The notes under the pieces are model-generated. The model searched no databases. It had not been told where the DNA came from and saw only the letters and a list, made by a program, of their open reading frames with translations. 64,000 nt of DNA from Gongronella butleri (taxonomy: Eukaryota; Mucoromycota; Mucoromycetes; Mucorales; Cunninghamellaceae). Both the position numbers and the translations under genes were made by a program. Positions 6,878-52,290 of this stretch are shown piece by piece. The DNA lies in assembly GCA_025201375.1 (NCBI GenBank), contig JAIWZP010000017.1:248001-312000 (forward strand), written 5' to 3'. Each line of letters begins with the position of its first letter. The first letter of the stretch is position 1.

Positions 6878-7679
6878 GATGTGGATGGGAGAAATGGAAA
6901 TGCTAGAGCATCACCGGCTTGTCTATCTACAGTATCAATCTCAGCAAAAGGAAAGGAAAAGAAAAGAAGCGAGTAAAAATGCGACGAAAAGATTACTGAT
7001 AACGCCATCCTCACGCGTGATTGAAAGCTTTGGTCATGGGATCACGCAAGATGTCATACGACAATGGAAAAAGAGCAACAATACCCACCTGATCCTGCCG
7101 CCGGTCTTCCAAATGGAGGCAATTCTTCCACCTCCCTAATGGGCCACCCCGCATTGCCTCATCGTTTTGCAAAACGAAAAAAAGGAAGTCGCAAAACAAA
7201 TAGCACATCGCATAAAATACACGCGAAACGGACGTAAAATCATGTAAAAATAAAAAAATATCATACTGTATGATATGATAACATGCGTTTTGAAGCATTG
7301 CAAGCATTATTTGCAAACAAATGCAGTACAGTAGTACGGGTTTGAGCTGTAAAAGGGGTACTGTAAAATCACCACCATCTTGTCGAGTGCCGCAGCAATG
7401 CAGGCCCAGGCGCCCAACGTACTACCGGTATGATACTGTATCATTTCGACGCGGCGCAGGTCGCCTCAAAAGATAGATCATCGGCCAAAAACGGCGAAAG
7501 ATAAATGCACAAAACGACAAAGCAGCACAAATTTCATCCGTTTTGTACGGTACTTCTGTTGGATTTTTGCACGCAAATACTGTAAAGCGTTTGATCTGCC
7601 CATCATGTTTCGATCTCAGTATCATAGACAGAAACTGATGCGTGCTACAGTATGACCTCAATGCCTCAAGCATCGCACA

Positions 7680-8300
7680 ACACTGCACAAAAACTTGTAC
7701 ATTCACCGTTCAAGCACCAAAAACGTGTTTTTCAGACTTTAATGGCCTCTTGCTTGTGCCTCCAGAATTTTTTTTACAACCTGCTCGCCCGCCAATGAAA
7801 CCTGCGTCACGGTAAACTGTAGCCCGCCAGTGCTCAAGACGGACCCGCCCGATTTTTTTTGGACTCGAAAATGCCGAAATCGTCCTATTTGTACTATTTT
7901 GCATTCCTCTCATCATATGCATGGTCGACCCTGCTCAAAAATACTGTAGCTGCATCGTCGCATGCATTCAGCGCAAATTTTGCAACAAAAAAGCCTAAAC
8001 CCCCAAAGCGCTACGACCACTTTTAAAAAATTCAGGGGTCACTCAGGGGTCACACATTTCAAACTCAGAATATGCCAAATTTGGAAAATTTCGAACTCCG
8101 AGAGATCAATGCATCCCAAACAGGCAAATCCAACGATTTGCTACTGGCAGGCAAAATGCCAGATCGCCCCAACTTTAGAAAATTTCCCAAAGAGAGAGTG
8201 ACGCATGAAAGGCGATCGACCGAGAAAAGTGCCAACTTTGGGAAAGATTTTTTGCAAAATTTAAGGTTTGACACTTCCAAATTCAGGTGCGTAAATTGCA
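7680..8300. repeat. Degenerate dispersed repeat, blocks A and B (island 1 copy)
   Basis: Block A (about 7680-7920) recurs at about 38257-38520 and 49200-49390. Block B (about 7960-8300) recurs at about 49400-49740. Shared landmarks include GCGCTACGACCACTTTT, the repeated CAGGGGTCACTC and GATCAATGCATCCCAAACAG. Copies differ by substitutions and indels, so they are old. No intact ORF runs through them. Confidence 0.75.
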
Positions 8301-8376
8301 TTGAATTTTTTTTATTTTTTTTATTTTTTTATTTTTTTATTTTGCACACTTTTGTGTGCTGATGAGTGGGCTATGA

Positions 8377-8393
8377 TACTGTACTGTACTGTA
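8377..8393. repeat. (TACTG)3 array abutting the left end of element 1
   Basis: Three TACTG units plus a final TA directly precede the CAGTACC terminus of the palindromic element. Each unit reads as TA + CTG, which has the form of a TA-target cut-and-paste footprint. Confidence 0.7.
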
Positions 8394-9409
8394 CAGTACC
8401 ATACCCTACAAAAAAAAATGTCGCAAAGTCAATTTTTCTGCAGTGCCAGCTGCAAAATTTATCACTTTAATCTCCTCTGTATTGATCAATAATGACTCCA
8501 ATGACATGAAATTTTGTAGAAACAATGGTTTGGATGTATAAAAAAGATTATAAAATTATGACATGGATGAAGTGAGCGGGTTTTGAAATAGACTAATAAA
8601 GGAGAACCTGACGCGTCACGCGACGCGACGCGTACCCAAGCGTGTACAATGACCTGTGGAGGCGAATTGACATTATGAATGAATATCTCCAAATTTTTTT
8701 GAGACAATCATGGATATGTCTAATTATTTTTGTCAATTCATTTTTGGGCACACGCGTCATGCCAGAGCGCAGCGTGTCAATTGGTCAAATTGCCCCTATG
8801 ACGCGCTAGGCAGCAAAAAACTATGGAAAAATGATTTTATCTCTAGCAAACAATTTTAATCTCTTTGTTGACTTGAAAATATGATAATTATTTAATTTGA
8901 AAGCATAGAAGTAGATGCTATTGACTACCTGTGATTATATCAACCAGTTAGGGCATCACGGTCACATTAAGGAAATCGCGACATATGACGCGTCAGACGC
9001 GCCACAGTGACAATTTGACCAATTGACACGCTGCGCTCTGGCATGACGCGTGTGCCCAAAAATGAATTGACAAAAATAATTAGACATATCCATGATTGTC
9101 TCAAAAAAATTTGGAGATATTCATTCATAATGTCAATTCGCCTCCACAGGTCATTGTACACGCTTGGGTACGCGTCGCGTCGCGTGACGCGTCAGGTTCT
9201 CCTTTATTAGTCTATTTCAAAACCCGCTCACTTCATCCATGTCATAATTTTATAATCTTTTTTATACATCCAAACCATTGTTTCTACAAAATTTCATGTC
9301 ATTGGAGTCATTATTGATCAATACAGAGGAGATTAAAGTGATAAATTTTGCAGCTGGCACTGCAGAAAAATTGACTTTGCGACATTTTTTTTTGTAGGGT
9401 ATGGTACTG
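8394..9409. mobile_element. Foldback/MITE-like element 1, TA-flanked, Tc1/mariner-type ends
   Basis: A 1016 bp near-palindrome. The left arm runs from 8394 to about 8796. The right arm, about 9007 to 9409, is its inverted complement, leaving a unique loop of about 210 bp. The ends read CAGTACCATACCCTAC and the reverse complement, flanked by TA on both sides (8392-8393, 9410-9411). TA duplication with CAGT-type ends is typical of Tc1/mariner non-autonomous derivatives. Neither arms nor loop encode a transposase; the 73-residue ORF found in each arm is a mirror-image by-product. The arms contain clusters of ACGCGT and CGCGACGCGACGCG. Confidence 0.85.
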
Positions 9410-9481
9410 TACAGCCTTGCGAAATGACCGATGCAGAAAGTTAAAAGCCAAGCTACAGTAGTAGCAGCGCATTGCAAGCAA

Positions 9482-9830
9482 GTTATTCCATTAGATGCTT
9501 TGCCCCGCTTTTTGTTACGTATTTAGTAAAACTGGAATAAAAATCATTCACAAGTTTATTACTGTAGAAGACCACCGTTGTCGACAAGCAAATCGCGATC
9601 AAATTGATGAAAAAGTGATGAATTTTCTCTGCGAGTTTTAGCCATGCATCCTGCATCGACGAAACTGGTCTCATTCGACAGAGTGAGGAAACAGATGCAT
9701 GCCTTACTTCGACACGTTACTCAGTAAAAGCGCCATGTGTTGTCGCCCAATCAGTTGCCGAGAACATCGAAGTACTGTAGTAGGGATGATGTATTTCAAA
9801 CAAATTCAAGCTCACTCTATACTGTAAAGC
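9482..9830. repeat. Degenerate dispersed repeat, block C (island 1 copy)
   Basis: This copy shares landmarks such as TTAGATGCTTTGCCCC, AGCAAATCGCGAT, TTCTCTGCGAGTTTT and GAAACTGGTCTCATTCGA with copies at about 49911-50320 and 52325-52735, and more weakly with 11470-11780 and 51100-51480. It is non-coding in its present form. Confidence 0.7.
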
Positions 9831-10351
9831 TGTTTGAGCTCGTTTGAAATCGGATTTTTCGAGCTTGATTGAAAAGCTTGAAAAAGCTTGAAAATATTTT
9901 TGGACGTGATCACCCATGCTGAACATCTGTGATCTCCCTGTGAAATTCCTCATAAAGGAGGACAAATCAAGCTTTAAGCTCAAGCTTCAAGCCGAGCTTG
10001 ATCGAAAAAGCTTGTCCGAAAGCTTGAAAATGCAAAAAGGTCTCAAAAAAAATTGAAGAACACACCACAGAAATGATGAAAATTCAGAGTACAGGTATGA
10101 TACCACCTTCAATATTTTTTTCAAGCTTTCAAGCAAGCTTTTTCAAACACCAAAAAAAGCCTCCTAAGCTTGATTGAAATAAATTTTTTTTTTGCATGTT
10201 TGAGCTTGAGTCAAATGTCAAACTAAGCTTTTTCAAACAAGAAGCTTTCAAACACATGTTTGAAATACTGTACATCCCTACTAGGAGCTCATCGCGGTCA
10301 GTTTTTTTATTTGCGTGCAGGGTGCAGCAAGCTCCAATGATTCATGACGGT

Positions 10352-10378
10352 TACAGTACTGTACAGTACTGTACAGTA
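10352..10378. repeat. (TACWG)5 array abutting the left end of element 2
   Basis: Five units alternate TACAG and TACTG and end with TA, directly before the CTGTACC terminus of element 2. This matches the arrangement at element 1. Confidence 0.7.
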
Positions 10379-11399
10379 CTGTACCGTCCCCTACCAAAAA
10401 AAATGTCGCAAAGTCAATTTTTCTGCAGTGCCAGCAGCACTCACGTTAATCACTTTAATCTCTTCTGTAGTATTGATCAAAAATGGCTCCAGTGACATGA
10501 AATTTTGTACAAACAATGGTATGGAGGTATAAAAAAGACTACAAAATTATAAAACGGATATCGTGAGCGGGTTTTGAAATAGAACAAAAAAGGGGAACCT
10601 GACGCGTCACGCGACGCGACGCGTACCCAAGCTTATACAATGGCCTGTGGAGACGAGTTGACATTATGAATCAATATCTCCAAATTTTTCTGAGACATCC
10701 GTGGAAGTGTTTAATTATTTCTGCCAATTCATTTTAGGGCACACGTGTCATGCCAGAGCGCAGCGTGCCAATTGGTCAATTTGTCCCTATGACGCGCAAA
10801 GCGCCAAAAAAGCATGGAAAAATGATTTTATCTCTAGCAAAAAAATTAATCTCTTTGTTGACTTGAAACTATGATAATTATTTAATTTGAAAGCCTAAAA
10901 GTAAATGCTATTGAGTAGCTGTGATTATGTCATCCAGCTAGGTCACCACGGTCACATTAAGGAAATCGCGGCATATGACGCGTCGGACGTGTCACAGTGA
11001 CAAATTGACCAATTGGCACGCTGCGCTCTGGTATGACACGTGTGCCCTAAAATGAATTGGCAGAAATAATTAAACACTTCCACGGATGTCTCAGAAAAAT
11101 TTGGAGATATTGATTCATAATGTCAACTCGTCTCCACAGGCCATTGTATAAGCTTGGGTACGCGTCGCGTCGCGTGACGCGTCAGGTTCCCCTTTTTTGT
11201 TCTATTTCAAAACCCGCTTACGATATCCGTTTTATAATTTTATATCTTTTTTATACCTCCATATACCATTGTTTACACAAAATTTCATGTCACTGGAGCC
11301 ATTTTTGATCAATACAGAAGAGATTAAAGTGATTAACGTGAGTGCTGGCACTGCAGAAAAATTGACTTTGCGACATTTTTTTGGTAGGGGACGGTACAG
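10379..11399. mobile_element. Foldback/MITE-like element 2, diverged copy of element 1
   Basis: A 1021 bp element with the same architecture as element 1: arms of about 405 bp around a ~210 bp loop. The ends are CTGTACCGTCCCCTACC and its complement, flanked by TA (10377-10378, 11400-11401). The two arms of this copy agree with each other more closely than with copy 1. For example, both arms share changes absent from copy 1 (CCGTCCCC against CCATACCC). No coding capacity. Confidence 0.85.
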
Positions 11400-11469
11400 T
11401 ACAAATTTACATCACACTCGAAGTTGTTTGCAAAATGCTATTTCACGTTGGGACGCGTTTCGGGGCTAG

Positions 11470-27736: not shown

Positions 27737-28014
27737 ATTTTTTTGTTTTGGCAATTTTTCTGACACGGCGATGTGTCACATGCTTCGCTTTTTTTTGTTT
27801 GGCAATTCCTTTTGACTTGGCGACGCGTCACGTGCCACAATTTTTTTTGTATGGAAATCGATTTGACTTGGCGACGCGTGATGCGCGTGTTTTTTGCTTT
27901 TTTTTTTTTTTTAAGGAAACGGCTTGACACGGCGATGTGTCACGCTTTTTTCCACCCTTTTTGATTTTTTTTCTATGGCAATTCATTTTGACTTGGCGAC
28001 GCGTGATGCATATT
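27737..28014 (+). repeat. Minisatellite, ~5 imperfect units of ~50-65 bp
   Basis: Each unit has a T-rich half with GGCAAT or GGAAAT followed by GACTTGGCGACGCGTGATG or the variant GACACGGCGATGTGTCAC. Units start near 27737, 27788, 27841, 27891 and 27945. The second half of each unit is a partial palindrome around GCGACGCGT or GGCGATGTGTC. Confidence 0.75.
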
Positions 28015-30515: not shown

Positions 30516-33500
30516 TTATGCGCTACTGCGGACTTGTTCAAGGTGGCGTTGCATGCGCTGTGCACGCTCCAGATCCTCTTCAGCGTCTTGCACCATGGTG
30601 CGCGCTTCGGCGTACAGGCGTTCCCATTCGCTATCGCTGATCCATTTGCGATCCGACGCGTCATTGCTGCTGGTCGACGCGCTGCGCTGCGCTGTCGAGG
30701 ACGACATCATGGTCGAGGATGCCTTTTTCGCCTTGTCGGCTGTTTCGTTGGCCATGTCGTGCGTGCGCTGGCTCATGTCGTCAAACTTATTGTGCGCTTC
30801 GTCGGACCAATGGTGCAGACGTTCCTGGAGCCGCTCGGTGCCCGATACCGCGCGATCGTTGAGCTCATTCACCTTTTGGTCAAAAGAGTCGCGCCATGAC
30901 CGCGCTGTGCCTCGCGCGTCCTCCGCCGCCGCGTCCACCGACGAACGTGCATCACGCGCCGCGTTATCCATCGATTGCTGCGCATCCTGCTTCGTGGACG
31001 ACCACCAATGCTTCGCTTGCTCTGAACCTAGACATGATAAAAAAAAATGTGAGCAATACTGTAAACCCCCAACAGCAGCGCGTTTTTGTGCATTACTGTT
31101 ATTGATGACGTTCTCGGCATCACGCGACATTTGGTAAGCCTCGTTCTCGGTGGATTGCCACATGTCCTTGGCCTTGTCAGTGCCTATTTTATAAAAAAAG
31201 TCAATAAATTCGGCCCATTGTGCGTTTTGTTTCCTTTCTTACGCTCATTGACTGCGTTTTCTGCATCGCGTGACATTTGGTCGGCCTTGTCTTGCGCGTC
31301 TTTCTTGGTCGATTGCCACCAATGCTTGGCTTTGGCCGCATAAAAAAAAAAAAAAAAAGAGTCAATGGCGGCCATCGGTGTTTCTCGAGTAAGCCTTACT
31401 CTCATCCATGACTTTCTCAGCGTCGTTCGACACCTGTTCAGCCGCGCCTTGCGCCTCTTGCTTAGTCGATTGCCACCAATGCTTGGCCTTGTTCGTAGCT
31501 ACATTAGAAAAATTGGGCGAGGAAATGAGCACTCTTTGTTTTTTTTTTTTGCGAATGCTTTTTTTAAAATAGGTCGTACTATCGTTGAGCACGGACTGAG
31601 CATCGCGTGAGGCTTGGTCCATTGAATTTTGCGCGTCTTGGGCCTTTTCATTGGCGTCGCGCTTCATCTGGTCCCAATTGTCCTTGGCATTGTCGGCTGT
31701 TTGTTGCGCGTCGTTCTTGGTCGATTGCCACCAATGCTTTGCCTTGTCGGCAGCTGGTTTGAAAAAAAAAAATGAAGGATCAGCAGCCATTCGTGCAGCA
31801 ATCGCGTTTTTTTTTTTTTTTTTTTACAGTCATTGATTGCGCTTTCGGCCTTGCCGTGCATCTCATTGGTCTTTGCCTGGGCGTCACGCGTCGCTTGGTC
31901 GGCGGCATCCTGCGCGTCTTGCTTGGTAGATGACCACCAGCTCTTGACCTGGTTCGTGCCTTTTTTCAAATAAAAAAAATAAAATAAAATCAGTTTTTTT
32001 TTTTTTTTTTTTGTCTCCTTTCCCATCTCCTTTGGAGAGCCCACTCACGCTCGTGCATGGCATCGTCGGCCTTGGCCACGAGGTCATCGACCTTGTTGCG
32101 TGCGTCGCGCGTGGCCTGGCTGGCGGCGTCTTTCATTTCTTGCGCTTTCGTATCGGCATCGCGTTTCAATTGGCTCACGCTACCCTTGGTGTCGTCCACG
32201 GACTGCTGTGCGTCGTCCTTGGCCGATTGCCACCAATGCCTAACCTTGTCAGCGCCTATTGGAAACGGTGAATATTAGTGCGCTTTTTTTTTTTTCTAAA
32301 TTTTTCATTTTTAAAATGACGTCCTTACTCTCGTCGGCTTTGGCTTGGGTGTCACGAGCCGCTTTATCGGTCATGTCCTGCGCATCTTGCTTGGTCGACT
32401 GCCACCAATGTCTGGCTTTGTTGGCACCTGGACCAAAGACGCGTTAAAATCTGCGAAAACACGCCATCTTTCAAAAAGTACTCACCTTCATTGGCCGAGT
32501 CTTCCGCTTTGCGCTTGAGCTCGTTCGCCTTGCCCTGCGCGTCGCGCGTCGCTTGATCGGCGGTGTCCTGAACCTCTTGCTTGGTCGACGACCACCAGCT
32601 CTTGACCTTTTCCGCGCCTACAATAGGATTGCAAGGTAAGTCAGTGGCCTCCCCTCTTATCTATTTTGTGTCATTTTACCATCCTTGGCGGCGTCATCTG
32701 CCGTGTCCGTGATGTCGTTTGCCTTGCTTTGCATCTCATATGCCTTTTTTTGAGAATCACGCTCGACTTTGTCGGTGGTGTCCTGCGCCTCATGCTTAGC
32801 TGACGACCACCAGCTCTTGGCCTTGTCCACACCTACAATTTAATTGCGATGGATCCATGATTCATATCATGTTTCTTCATTTTTTCTTATTTTTTCATTT
32901 TACCTTCATTGACGGCATCCGTGGCCATGTTCTTGGCGTCGTTTGCCGTCTCCGTGATGTCGTTTGCCTTGCTTTCCATCTCATTTGCCATTTTTTGAGA
33001 ATCGCGCTCGACATTGTCGGTGGTGTCTTGCGCATCACGCTTGACCGACGACCACCAGCTCTTGGCCTTGTCCACGCCTAGAATTGAATTGCAATGCATC
33101 AATGGATCATTTCATGTTTTCTTCATTCTTTCATTTTACCATCATTGACGGCATCCGTGGTCGTGTTCTTGACGTCGTCCGTGATGTCATTTGCCTTGCT
33201 TTCCATTTCAAATGCCTTTTTTTGAGAATCGCGCTCGACTTTGTCGGTGGTGTCCTGTGCATCATGCTTGGCCGACGACCACCAGCTCTTGGCCTTGTCC
33301 ACGCCTACAATTTTTGTTGCAACGGATCAATGAATCATTTCATGTTTCTTGAATTTTTTTTTTTTTTACCATCATTGGCGGCGTCTGTGGCCTTGTTCTT
33401 GATGTCGGTTGCCTTGTTTTTGACATCGTCTGCTTTGTTTTGCGCGTCGCGAGCAGCATAGTCCGTCATGTCCTTTGCGTCCTTTTTGGCAGATTGCCAC

Positions 33501-48297: not shown

Positions 48298-49199
48298 CGA
48301 GCTTAAGGGCGCGTAAATGTAAAAAGAGAAACTTGTGAAAAAGTGGGAAACGAAGTGCTGCGCGGACTTTTGCTCCCTTTTGATTCCCGTCTTTTGCTGA
48401 ACGCGTCCTCCTGCTATGCTGCTTGTTGAAATGTCATGTCTTTCCAGCAGAAAAATCTTGCATCCAAAAAAAAAAAAATGTAAAAACCGCATCATCAATG
48501 TAATTTTGATGCAAACGTTGAGGCTGCATTGGCTTCTAGAACAAGAGACTAGCTGTATCACACTGCAGAGAAGCCACTTTTTCGCGTTTTTTTTGTATTT
48601 TGCGTGCCTCTCGCAGCAGACAATCTTCTCAAAAATCCAATTGTAACCCCAATGGACATTGAGTGGTGCGAATCTTCTGCTTTCAAAGCATCACCAAAAC
48701 CCGCGATTCCCTCAAAAACGACTAGTTGCGCGTAATTCACTTGTTTCCGTAGTATTTACACACAGGATTACAGTACCAATGTAGTGATTTGGATTTCTAG
48801 CTGTATTTTGCTTTATGTAGCCCCTTTTTCACCTGCACGTTCTCTCTCTTTTTTTTTTTTGTTCCTTTCTTGTTACGTACAGTATTTAATGCGCCTCTGT
48901 CTCCGTTTTTACTTTTTCTCTTTAGTGTTGGGCTTGCATTGGCCTACATAAAAGCGTTTGCCGTGTTACAGTAGTTCTTGGTGGGTCGGAAGCCTCTTAG
49001 TGGCACAACGCCGGTACAGTACGCCCGTGGCCCGTCGCTTAAGTTGTTGTTTAAGATATCATAATGGCAAGTTCAGTGAAATGAACACGAAGAAACACAA
49101 TACGTATATCATATACTGTACGCACAAATAAAAGGTTTGATATGTGCATCTGTCCGTTTTTTAATCTCAACAGACAGAACGTGAAATGCGATGTCACTT

Positions 49200-49740
49200 C
49201 AATGCTTGCTGCAGCGCGCTACGCGGCACAAAAAAGCACTCACATTTGCCATTAAAAAAAGGCAAATCTTGTTTTTCAGACTTTGGCGGCTTACTGTATG
49301 TGCTTCCAGAAATTTTTTTACAGCCTGTGAATTCCAAATTCCTTCAGTTTACTCTATTTTGCATTCAACTCACCATCTGAATGGTCGGCACCGTTCAAAA
49401 ACAGCTGCATCGCATTCAGCGCAAAATTTGTAACAAAAAAGCTTAAAACCCCAAAGCGCTACGACCACTTTTTAAAAATTCAGGGGTCACTCAGGGGTCG
49501 CTCAGGGGTCACACATTCAAACTCAGAAAATACCTAATTTGATAAATTTTGAACTCCGAGTGATCAATGCATCCCAAACAGGTAATTCCGACAATTTCCT
49601 ATTGGCAGACAAATTGGCAGGCCCTCTCAGCTGGAAAAAAAGCCCAAAGAGTGACGCATGAACGGCGGTCGACCGAGAAAAAGTACCTACTTTGGGTAAG
49701 ATTTTTTTGCAAAAATTTAAGGTTTGAGACTTTCAAAATA
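49200..49740. repeat. Degenerate dispersed repeat, blocks A and B (island 4 copy)
   Basis: Colinear with 7680-8300. Here the CAGGGGTCACTC word occurs three times instead of two. Confidence 0.7.
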
Positions 49741-49910
49741 CTGTAAGTTATGATATGTCTGGATTGCATGGATTTTTTTTACAGTATTTTTTTATTTTGC
49801 ACATTTTTGCGTGTTGATCATGGATGAGTGGTGGGCTGCTGGTGGCTGATGAAAATGGTCAATGCAAAAAGTTCAAACCCAAGCTAGAGCACTACTGCAA
49901 CTCATCCCAT

Positions 49911-50320
49911 TAGATGCTTTGCCCCCCTGTTTGTTAGTACAACAGTAAAACTCTAATAAAAACCGAGCGCGACTAGACCATTGTCGAGCAAATCGCGATT
50001 GAAGATTTTGATGAAAAAGTGAACTTTCTCTGCGAGTTTTGGTCATCCATCGGTGAAACTGGTCTCATTCGATAGGAATTCAACAGATGCCTTTGAAATG
50101 TCAAAAGCACTGTTGGTTGCTTTTCCAGTTGTCGAAAAAATTGAGCTTGAAAATTGATCCAATGTTTGAACGACTTTTACAAGCAGGCAAGGTTCATCCA
50201 TTGAGTTCACAAACAATCAGGAAATAACACAGAGTGCGTCTCTTTCGATCGGTGTCACTTTCACGGCGATCCACAAAAAATATTTTGAGAACCCGTTGTG
50301 AATTTGTGGAAATATCAAGA
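49911..50320. repeat. Degenerate dispersed repeat, block C (island 4 copy)
   Basis: Matches about 9482-9830 and 52325-52735 (CCATTAGATGCTTTGCCC, AAATCGCGATTGAAGATTT, AAACTGGTCTCATTCGA). Confidence 0.7.
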
Positions 50321-51099
50321 TTTGGATTCATTTGCACAGTGACTCGGTCGACTCATGGTTTAAACAACGTCTTTTCAAAAAAAAAGACGCGTCGATATAA
50401 CGTACGTAATGTGTAGCTTTTGTGCGATTCAACCATGATGATTTGTGGCGTTAAGTTCTGCACTTGTAAAAATGTCTTGATTTCGAATTCATTTGCACCA
50501 CAACGGTCCAGTCTAGCTACAGTATCGCTGGTTTTCAATGTCATTTGAACAAGGCGCGGCGAAATAGTCAAGGAGCAAAGGTTGGGAGGCAATCGAATCA
50601 TGATTTGTGTTGGTCATCATTGGATTTGTGACAATTCGTAAAAACGGTGCATGCCACGAAAACGACCCGATCAACCTCTGGTTTTTTAATTTTTCCTTCA
50701 AAGAGAGACGCTGAAAAAGCCAAGAGGCAAAGTTTGGCGGTGACCGAATCATGATTTTACCGCGAAATGATTTTTACGAAAACGCGCTACAGCAAAATTT
50801 TCAGCAATGTCGTGGTTCCCGACAAACCACATGGTTGACCTTTGCTTTTTTATTTTTTTATGACAAGAGAGGGGTAAAATCCACTACTGTACTACTGTAC
50901 ATGTAAAAGTTTCGTGGCGCTGAGATGAGTCATTGGTGACGAAATGTTTTTTTTTCAAATTTAGAAAAAAAAGTGGATCAGGTCAAAATGCATCTGGAGG
51001 GTCCCTCGCTTTGAGAAGAGGGTCAAGCCCAAACAAAGATCTCAAATTCGTTTGGCAACCTACACACTGGGGATCTAAAAGCCATGCCATTACAAGCAT

Positions 51100-51480
51100 A
51101 AACCCCCTCTTTCTAAGCAAATCTGCAATAAAACTTGGGGGTCGATCAAGCTGTTTTCGAGGAAAATGAGATCAAAGCCAAAATATAGAAAATGAACTTT
51201 CTTGATCAGTTTTGGTCGTACGCGCGTGAAACTGGGTTCATCCGACAGAGAATCGAATTCAGCATCTTTGGTCACAGTAGCTCGCCATCCTTTGCCTTGT
51301 CCATTGCCGAAAAAAATGAAGCTGAAATCTTTGATTGGGCGTCGCAAGTGTACAAATGTTGCCCATCATCGGCGTTGCCGTGCAGGGACAAAATGACACT
51401 CTTGCGTGTCTCTTTCTACTCGCAAGTTTTGAGCATGGCAAAATAGCAATCAAACGCGCCAGAGACAAAATTGAGAATTT
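51100..51480. repeat. Degenerate dispersed repeat, block D (island 4 copy)
   Basis: Colinear with 11470-11780; see that entry for landmarks. Confidence 0.65.
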
Positions 51481-51639
51481 ATAGGGAAATATCGATTTTC
51501 TCGTCAACGGCCAGGTCAACCCCCGGTTGTTTTACTTTTGTTTGGAAAGAAGAGAGAGGCCGAAATACCCACATGTCAAAGTTTCGTGGAGCTGAGAGCA
51601 CTCGATGGTGCCCCTTGTCGAATTGAAAAAAGCACGATT

Positions 51640-52290
51640 TTCCACCGATTTTCCAAGGTGTACAGTCACGAATTTTTAATCCGTAAAAAATTAGGTCCTC
51701 GAATCGCCGCGACATTCAACCACATGGTAGAAGAATGTATCCATTTATCAATAAAAATGCAATAAAATCCAAGGGTTCCATTGACTGGTTTTCGCGTAAA
51801 TTGCAATTTGCTTTGTATTTTTGCTACAAGGCTACTGTATCTCGACAAAGACTGGCCGCTGATCCTTGAAACGCAGCTCATACAGTAAGAAAGAGTGCAA
51901 TCTGCTGCGTACGTGACCATCAATGATCTCTTTAAAAAACAAGTTCCAGACAGAATTGACGCGAACAGATTGTTTGCGCGGCAAATTGGACGCGTGAAAA
52001 ACCCCGTCAGACTTTAATTTAAGGGCGCTTGTTTCAAGTCAAATCCATGTATCTGAATCCTCTTTTGCTAGTGAATGCGTCGATACGACTCCAAGGACGC
52101 GCTCCTGCGTGTCATTTGTCGGCAAAGTTTATTCCAAAATCCCGAATTGCCTGCCAACCAGTAGGTCAATCTCACTCTTTTTGGCCATGTTTCGTGGTTT
52201 CTCCCTGTGCTGCCTCTTGCGTGCAAGTTTGGAGGAATTCTGGAGATCCTTTTTTTTCGATTTTGATTTTGGAGCTCTGAGATGGCTATT
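51640..52290. repeat. Degenerate dispersed repeat, block E (island 4 copy)
   Basis: Colinear with 26330-26990. Followed directly by a C-type copy at 52325, an arrangement absent from island 2. Confidence 0.65.

Follow-up and report, generated by a model that had tools for sequence, protein, structure and literature searches.

Probable stacked excision footprints of Tc1/mariner elements in TACWG arrays of Gongronella butleri

The window analysed here is a 64-kb stretch of DNA (64,000 nucleotides) from the assembly of Gongronella butleri (Mucorales, Cunninghamellaceae), which comprises 33.0 Mb in 110 contigs. A Sec31-like protein encoded in the window is 100% identical, over 97% of the query, to a G. 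butleri protein. It carries two palindromic elements, each with an array of five-base units at its left edge (Table 1). The letters and coordinates that an earlier note gave for the arrays are correct. That note described array 1 as three TACTG units; these are present (8377-8391), but the preceding TGA unit (TATGATA, 8372-8378) was overlooked, and array 1 thus consists of four stacked footprint-like units of two classes, TGA and CTG. Array 2 holds five CWG units (10352-10376). The last TA of each array (8392-8393 and 10377-10378) doubles as the left copy of the adjoining element's TA duplication. The TACAG to the right of element 1 (9410-9414) is probably no unit at all, but the host repeat's own TGCAGCC with a G>A change. 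The two arms of element 1 match each other at 99% over 412 bp, compared with about 88% for arms between elements 1 and 2, a difference which suggests that the arms inside one element keep each other alike.

Table 1. Features of the window (positions) and loci of the 360-aa Tc1 family
Feature	Position or locus	Strand	Description	Basis
Repeat R, left part	8250..8371	+	Element 1 inserted into R	Matches L039, L009, L004, L042, L020, L022, others
Array 1	8372..8393		TA-TGA-TA-CTG-TA-CTG-TA-CTG-TA; mostly absent from host-repeat paralogs	Sequence
Element 1	8394..9409		Palindromic, non-autonomous Tc1/mariner, 1016 bp, starts CAG, ends CTG	
Right TA duplication copy, element 1	9410..9411			Sequence
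Repeat R, right part	9412..9545	+	Extra TACAGTA at 9454, near R's CAAGC-TA-GCGC site	R paralog comparison
Array 2	10352..10378		TACAG-TACTG-TACAG-TACTG-TACAG-TA	Sequence
Element 2	10379..11399		Palindromic, non-autonomous Tc1/mariner, 1021 bp, starts CTG, ends CAG	
Right TA duplication copy, element 2	11400..11401			Sequence
Mixed unit chain	7264..7274		TATCATA/TATGATA with CTG, next to TACTGTA; solo stacked-scar example	Motif positions
Second cluster of solo TACWGTA scars	48769..51887		15 TACWGTA starts	Motif positions
360-aa family copies	L079-L081, L085-L090		Ends also in L004, L041	Sequence comparison

The arrays are real and beyond chance. When the window was simulated 100 times with an order-2 Markov model, the longest TACWG run was zero units in eight replicas, one in 91 and two in a single replica, against the three and five observed. 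TACWGTA ranks second among all heptamers of the window by excess over the order-2 expectation, with 44 copies against 1.6 expected. The window also contains tandem arrays of other kinds, one with a 245-base unit (3.0 copies, 32705-33407) and one with a 52-base unit (2.8 copies, 27738-27879).

The palindromic elements belong to a larger family. A query with one arm gave at least 43 matches, a lower bound because only 40 of the 368 candidates were scored. A terminal-region pattern returned 76 ends, and CWG stood before TACC in 73 of these (ATG in two, CCG in one). Among the 57 CWG ends sampled, 52 had TA outside (the remainder CA in three, GA in one and TG in one). The left edge, at which the earlier note placed the arrays, is not the rule: 13 of the 57 ends have outer units, which may lie on one side of an element or on both and include CCG (L070) and TGA (L072 and the window).

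The earlier note proposed a search for an autonomous relative encoding a DDE/D transposase, and such a relative lies at locus L039. It has the same ends and an open frame of 343 aa of Tc1 type, with matches to PF13358 (1e-16), to PF01498 (3.6e-16) and to the SB100X entry 5cr4 (4.7e-31), and with 34 residues between the second D and the E, counted by eye. L082 likewise has a 343-aa frame; in L040 and L042 the longest start-codon frames reach only 242 aa and 161 aa. All four relatives combine transposase coding with the first ~25-35 bases of the palindromic family. Judged by these sequences, the palindromic elements are non-autonomous Tc1/mariner elements with a Sleeping Beauty-like transposase relative that shares their ends. 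Profile matches across the genome number 74 for DDE_3 and three for DDE_1, each of the three with an internal stop. A CSG-ended family also exists (L043, ends TA-CCGTGGCTC), with eight more places at equal score. A search of the sampled loci for an element that would leave TSA scars brought up mainly inner parts of the palindromic element and no TSA-ended family. Loci L044 and L045 each contain a pogo-type element about 2.9 kb long; the two are 98% alike, have ends TA-CAGTAGGTTCTGG and carry stops in their transposase frames.

The motif of the arrays is abundant in the genome as a whole. The 33 Mb contain 16,213 copies of TACWGTA and 9,529 of TATSATA, and 554 of TAGWCTA, a control of the same form. 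Read backwards, the three patterns occur 6,355, 1,031 and 3,872 times; these controls are rough, as their dinucleotides differ, and by them the TACWGTA excess is just 2.6-fold. Because element ends and chance copies are included, the counts of TACWGTA and TATSATA are upper bounds for scars. Both motifs are conspicuous when the 32 TA-NNN-TA pairs are compared, whether in the window, in a set of nine C1 loci or in a set of 23 transposase loci. TACSGTA is enriched in the last two sets and not in the window (one copy), and some other pairs are mildly raised in one set, such as TACCCTA and TAGACTA in the transposase loci. TACWGTA, TATSATA and TACSGTA all have the form TA-x-N-x'-TA, which is what annealing of two three-base overhangs around a single mismatched middle base would leave. 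TATSATA occurs in the window at 7259-7274, 7429, 8372, 49057 and other positions, and it looks like a second scar class. Scars like these seem to be scattered by the thousands through the genome.

CWG runs were counted in loci not selected for arrays, namely the window and L024-L091 with three overlapping loci removed. Solo runs of one to five units numbered 258, 11, 5, 1 and 1 (276 in total), and runs touching known family ends, of one to six units, numbered 49, 8, 2, 4, 3 and 1 (67 in total). The earlier note named TACWG arrays away from elements as a possible refutation of excision footprints. Runs are indeed mostly solo, but this is what a footprint model expects.

Comparison of paralogs gives a view of how units arise. 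A pairwise scan of 65 non-overlapping loci (218 kb, 4,740 alignments) replaced an alignment of the arms to their majority sequence, which was noisy for some rows. Distinct length differences of one to seven bases numbered 407, 56, 101, 49, 87, 13 and 13; these rates are not transferable to the genome, because many of the loci were chosen for holding elements. Of the 87 five-base differences, 32 place TA-NNN-TA where the paralog has TA, although some of the 32 rest on one paralog and the direction, gain or loss, is not established for each. The NNN was CAG or CTG in 23, CCG or CGG in six and TCA or TGA in three, and the other 29 classes had none. The remaining 55 fail this strict test and include unrelated changes as well as some missed scars. 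TA-CWG-TA motifs are copy-specific between paralogs: away from element ends, W was the same at five sites, swapped at none and otherwise substituted at one, with 87 gaps; at ends it was the same at five, swapped at one and other at one, with few usable sites in either case. Three-base differences are frequent (101, of which 55 are tandem duplications) and reflect a second process. A four-base class of TACGTA type, CG without the middle base, also appears among the paralog differences.

Empty sites can be read in host repeat R, into which element 1 is inserted. A pattern search for the element-1 site found 13 places, none with units; eight read exactly GAGTGGGC-TGCAGCC-TGG and are exactly empty, and five have other small changes. 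The sampled R copies in L004, L039, L067 and one in L020 are close to GGGC-TGCAGCC at this site, and the copy in L022 has units a few bases off it. Because R copies read TG there, we infer that the target TA of element 1 arose by a G>A change. For a different TA of R, 98 listed matches, three of them nested, represent 95 places. The TA is bare and the length unchanged at 64 of these, and 10 more have unchanged length without the TA. Other lengths occur at 21, and nine of those read TA-unit-TA: six with a single five-base unit (CTG in four, CAG in one, TCA in one) and three stacked (CGG then TGT; CAG then TGA; TCA then GC-TA). Two more of the 21 have the four-base form TACGTA (C21:407105 and C34:959615). 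A third R site had units in none of its 10 pattern matches; in the sampled copies L006, L011 and L022 units are apparently present there.

It is highly probable that each TACWG array is a stack of excision footprints left by Tc1/mariner elements with TA-CWG ends. In Sleeping Beauty, the first nick is reported to fall three bases inside the element, leaving three-base 3' overhangs from which end joining makes the footprints (PMC7827188). One account gives these footprints as TACAGTA and TACTGTA (PMC4378557), in agreement with the TAC(A/T)GTA form quoted in the earlier note. By analogy, a Sleeping Beauty-type transposase would insert an element at TA and later excise it, and each flank would then be left with a three-base CWG overhang. 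Pairing would occur at C and G, the middle A:A or T:T mismatch could be resolved either way, and the repaired site would have gone from TA to TA-CWG-TA. Such a scar holds two TAs, so a later insertion and excision there would add further five-base units, each unit representing one insertion-excision cycle. Elements of other classes may contribute TSA and CSG units and thereby produce mixed chains. The idea that the arrays are stacked Tc1/mariner footprints had been put forward in the earlier note, and support for it comes from transposase genes with the same ends, bare sites in most paralogs, copy-specific five-base gains at TA in strict sequence classes, mixed classes within chains, and random W letters without a slippage signature. 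The paralog differences from TA to TA-CWG-TA have the three-base footprint of Tc1/mariner elements as a group, rather than of one named family.

Replication slippage would produce arrays differently, by expansion of a chance TACTGTA into a five-base microsatellite which elements adjoin by accident. The units do lie head to tail, array 2 alternates strictly, as a ten-base slip could make it, one long array (C18:321731) is nearly uniform, with W letters TAAAAAA, and slippage is common in this genome, where tandem duplications make up 208 of 407 one-base and 55 of 101 three-base differences. Among five-base differences, however, tandem duplications account for just 10 of 87. The W letters were compared in 31 arrays of at least four units, drawn from the first 50 forward places listed among 301 forward matches. 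They behave as coin flips: adjacent letters were the same 53 times and different 59 times, and letters two units apart 38 and 43 times, so neighbouring units are not alike as slippage would have them. Other unit classes are interspersed, array 1 being one chain with mixed classes, and 81 of 196 unit adjacencies in sampled chains, some from loci selected for long arrays, join different classes. Moreover, paralogs start from a bare TA and not from one unit. Pure slippage is rejected by the uncorrelated W letters and the few five-base tandem duplications; we consider slippage an improbable origin of the arrays, though some units may have been gained or lost through it. A binding site for a host factor could also explain why TACWGTA and TATSATA are enriched, since both are near-palindromic and clustered in parts of the window. 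This is very improbable given the clean five-base differences at TA between paralogs and the head-to-tail stacking in mixed order. Least credible of all is a three-base target duplication of the PIF/Harbinger kind. The target duplications of PIF are CWG-like, but the transposase here is of Tc1 type, and a duplication predicts T/A or A/T, read inward, in every element. The end triplets of 18 of 28 elements are TT or AA and cannot be one duplicated CWG, which refutes such a duplication for these elements.

The middle base of the terminal triplet is itself variable. A Tc1 family with a 360-aa protein has nine copies that differ from L079 at 0-3 positions over 1,250-1,251 columns, and because they are so nearly identical the family appears to have been active very recently. 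Its 18 outermost triplets are CTG in 11, CAG in six and CGG in one; those assigned to L004 and L041 prove from their coordinates to be the distal ends of the L086 and L085 copies. When the terminal W is mapped on a tree of 51 palindromic-family arms (49 ending in CWG), a minimum of 12 changes is required, compared with a mean of 14.2 (range 9-17) for shuffled labels, which leaves W with little if any family signal. One change suffices for the nearby R position and three for M, and none of the arm columns requires over six. For the 28 elements with both ends listed, the W pairs are TT in 13, AA in five and mixed in 10; independence predicts 12.9 mixed. A circle intermediate as the sole cause of W changes would make every element mixed and is rejected. 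Three junctions between elements lack the second triplet that ordinary insertion predicts. Neighbouring elements have one common CWG in L003 (near 2512) and in L077 (minus strand), and in L079 (near 701), where the left end of the 360-aa family abuts another element, the junction reads CACTG-TA-CAGTG.

The unstable outer W is unexplained by the textbook mechanism. We tentatively propose that in one Tc1 clade each move re-draws the middle base of the terminal CNG, with CNG being read from either strand at some step. Possible routes would include a hairpin end opened on either side, or element ends joined to scar overhangs. Alternatively, the outer CWG could belong to the target and not to the element. 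The true starts would then be TA-CCRT or TA-CAGTG, insertion would be almost only into stacked CWG-TA-CWG, and the arrays would be footprints of other families. This freely accounts for a W that varies among copies that are nearly identical and takes its value independently at each end, for the two junctions with a single common CWG and for the L079 junction; it also fits other Tc1 families keeping their terminal triplet, as in a 336-aa family with CTG in all six ends (one end per copy). The cost is a near-absolute choice of stacked CWG sites, with CWG at 73 of 76 ends when no more than 18 of the 276 solo runs contain at least two units. The TSA units that are frequent in chains are not seen at that place, and the CWG-CSG-CWG chains that excision should give are rare (two chains with W-G-W). 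We regard the target explanation as rather unlikely and lean to the re-drawn base. The stacked-footprint reading of the arrays holds in either case.

Single Tc1/mariner footprints are well known. Our literature search, whose scope left most subscription journals outside, found neither stacked Tc1/mariner footprint arrays nor such a genome census described. The system resembles Sleeping Beauty in its seven-base scar with either middle base, in its related transposase with 34 residues from the second D to the E, and in its TA duplication. It differs in that this is a natural genome where candidate scars run to thousands, form stacks of up to several units and are interspersed with two other scar classes, and in that one clade varies in the outermost middle base between near-identical copies. 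Palindromic (foldback-like) Tc1/mariner elements likewise have long inverted arms, a TA duplication and ends common to autonomous elements; here, by contrast, the arms nearly fill the 1 kb element and many copies are flanked by scar arrays. Slippage microsatellites have five-base units head to tail as well, but lack the random-looking middle letter, the interspersed classes and the bare-TA starting state seen in paralogs here.

If TACWGTA and TATSATA are largely scars, past cycles of insertion and excision can be read from the sequence of this genome. The cycles could be put in order against repeat copies, and the healing of donor breaks would be open to study. Stacked scars may serve as a record of past jumps. 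If the terminal base is in fact re-drawn, it would be a coin flip at each hop, and the stacked scars would be a hop counter for each site. Should the unstable end base be part of the element, it would point to a stage of cutting or pasting that has so far gone unrecognised.
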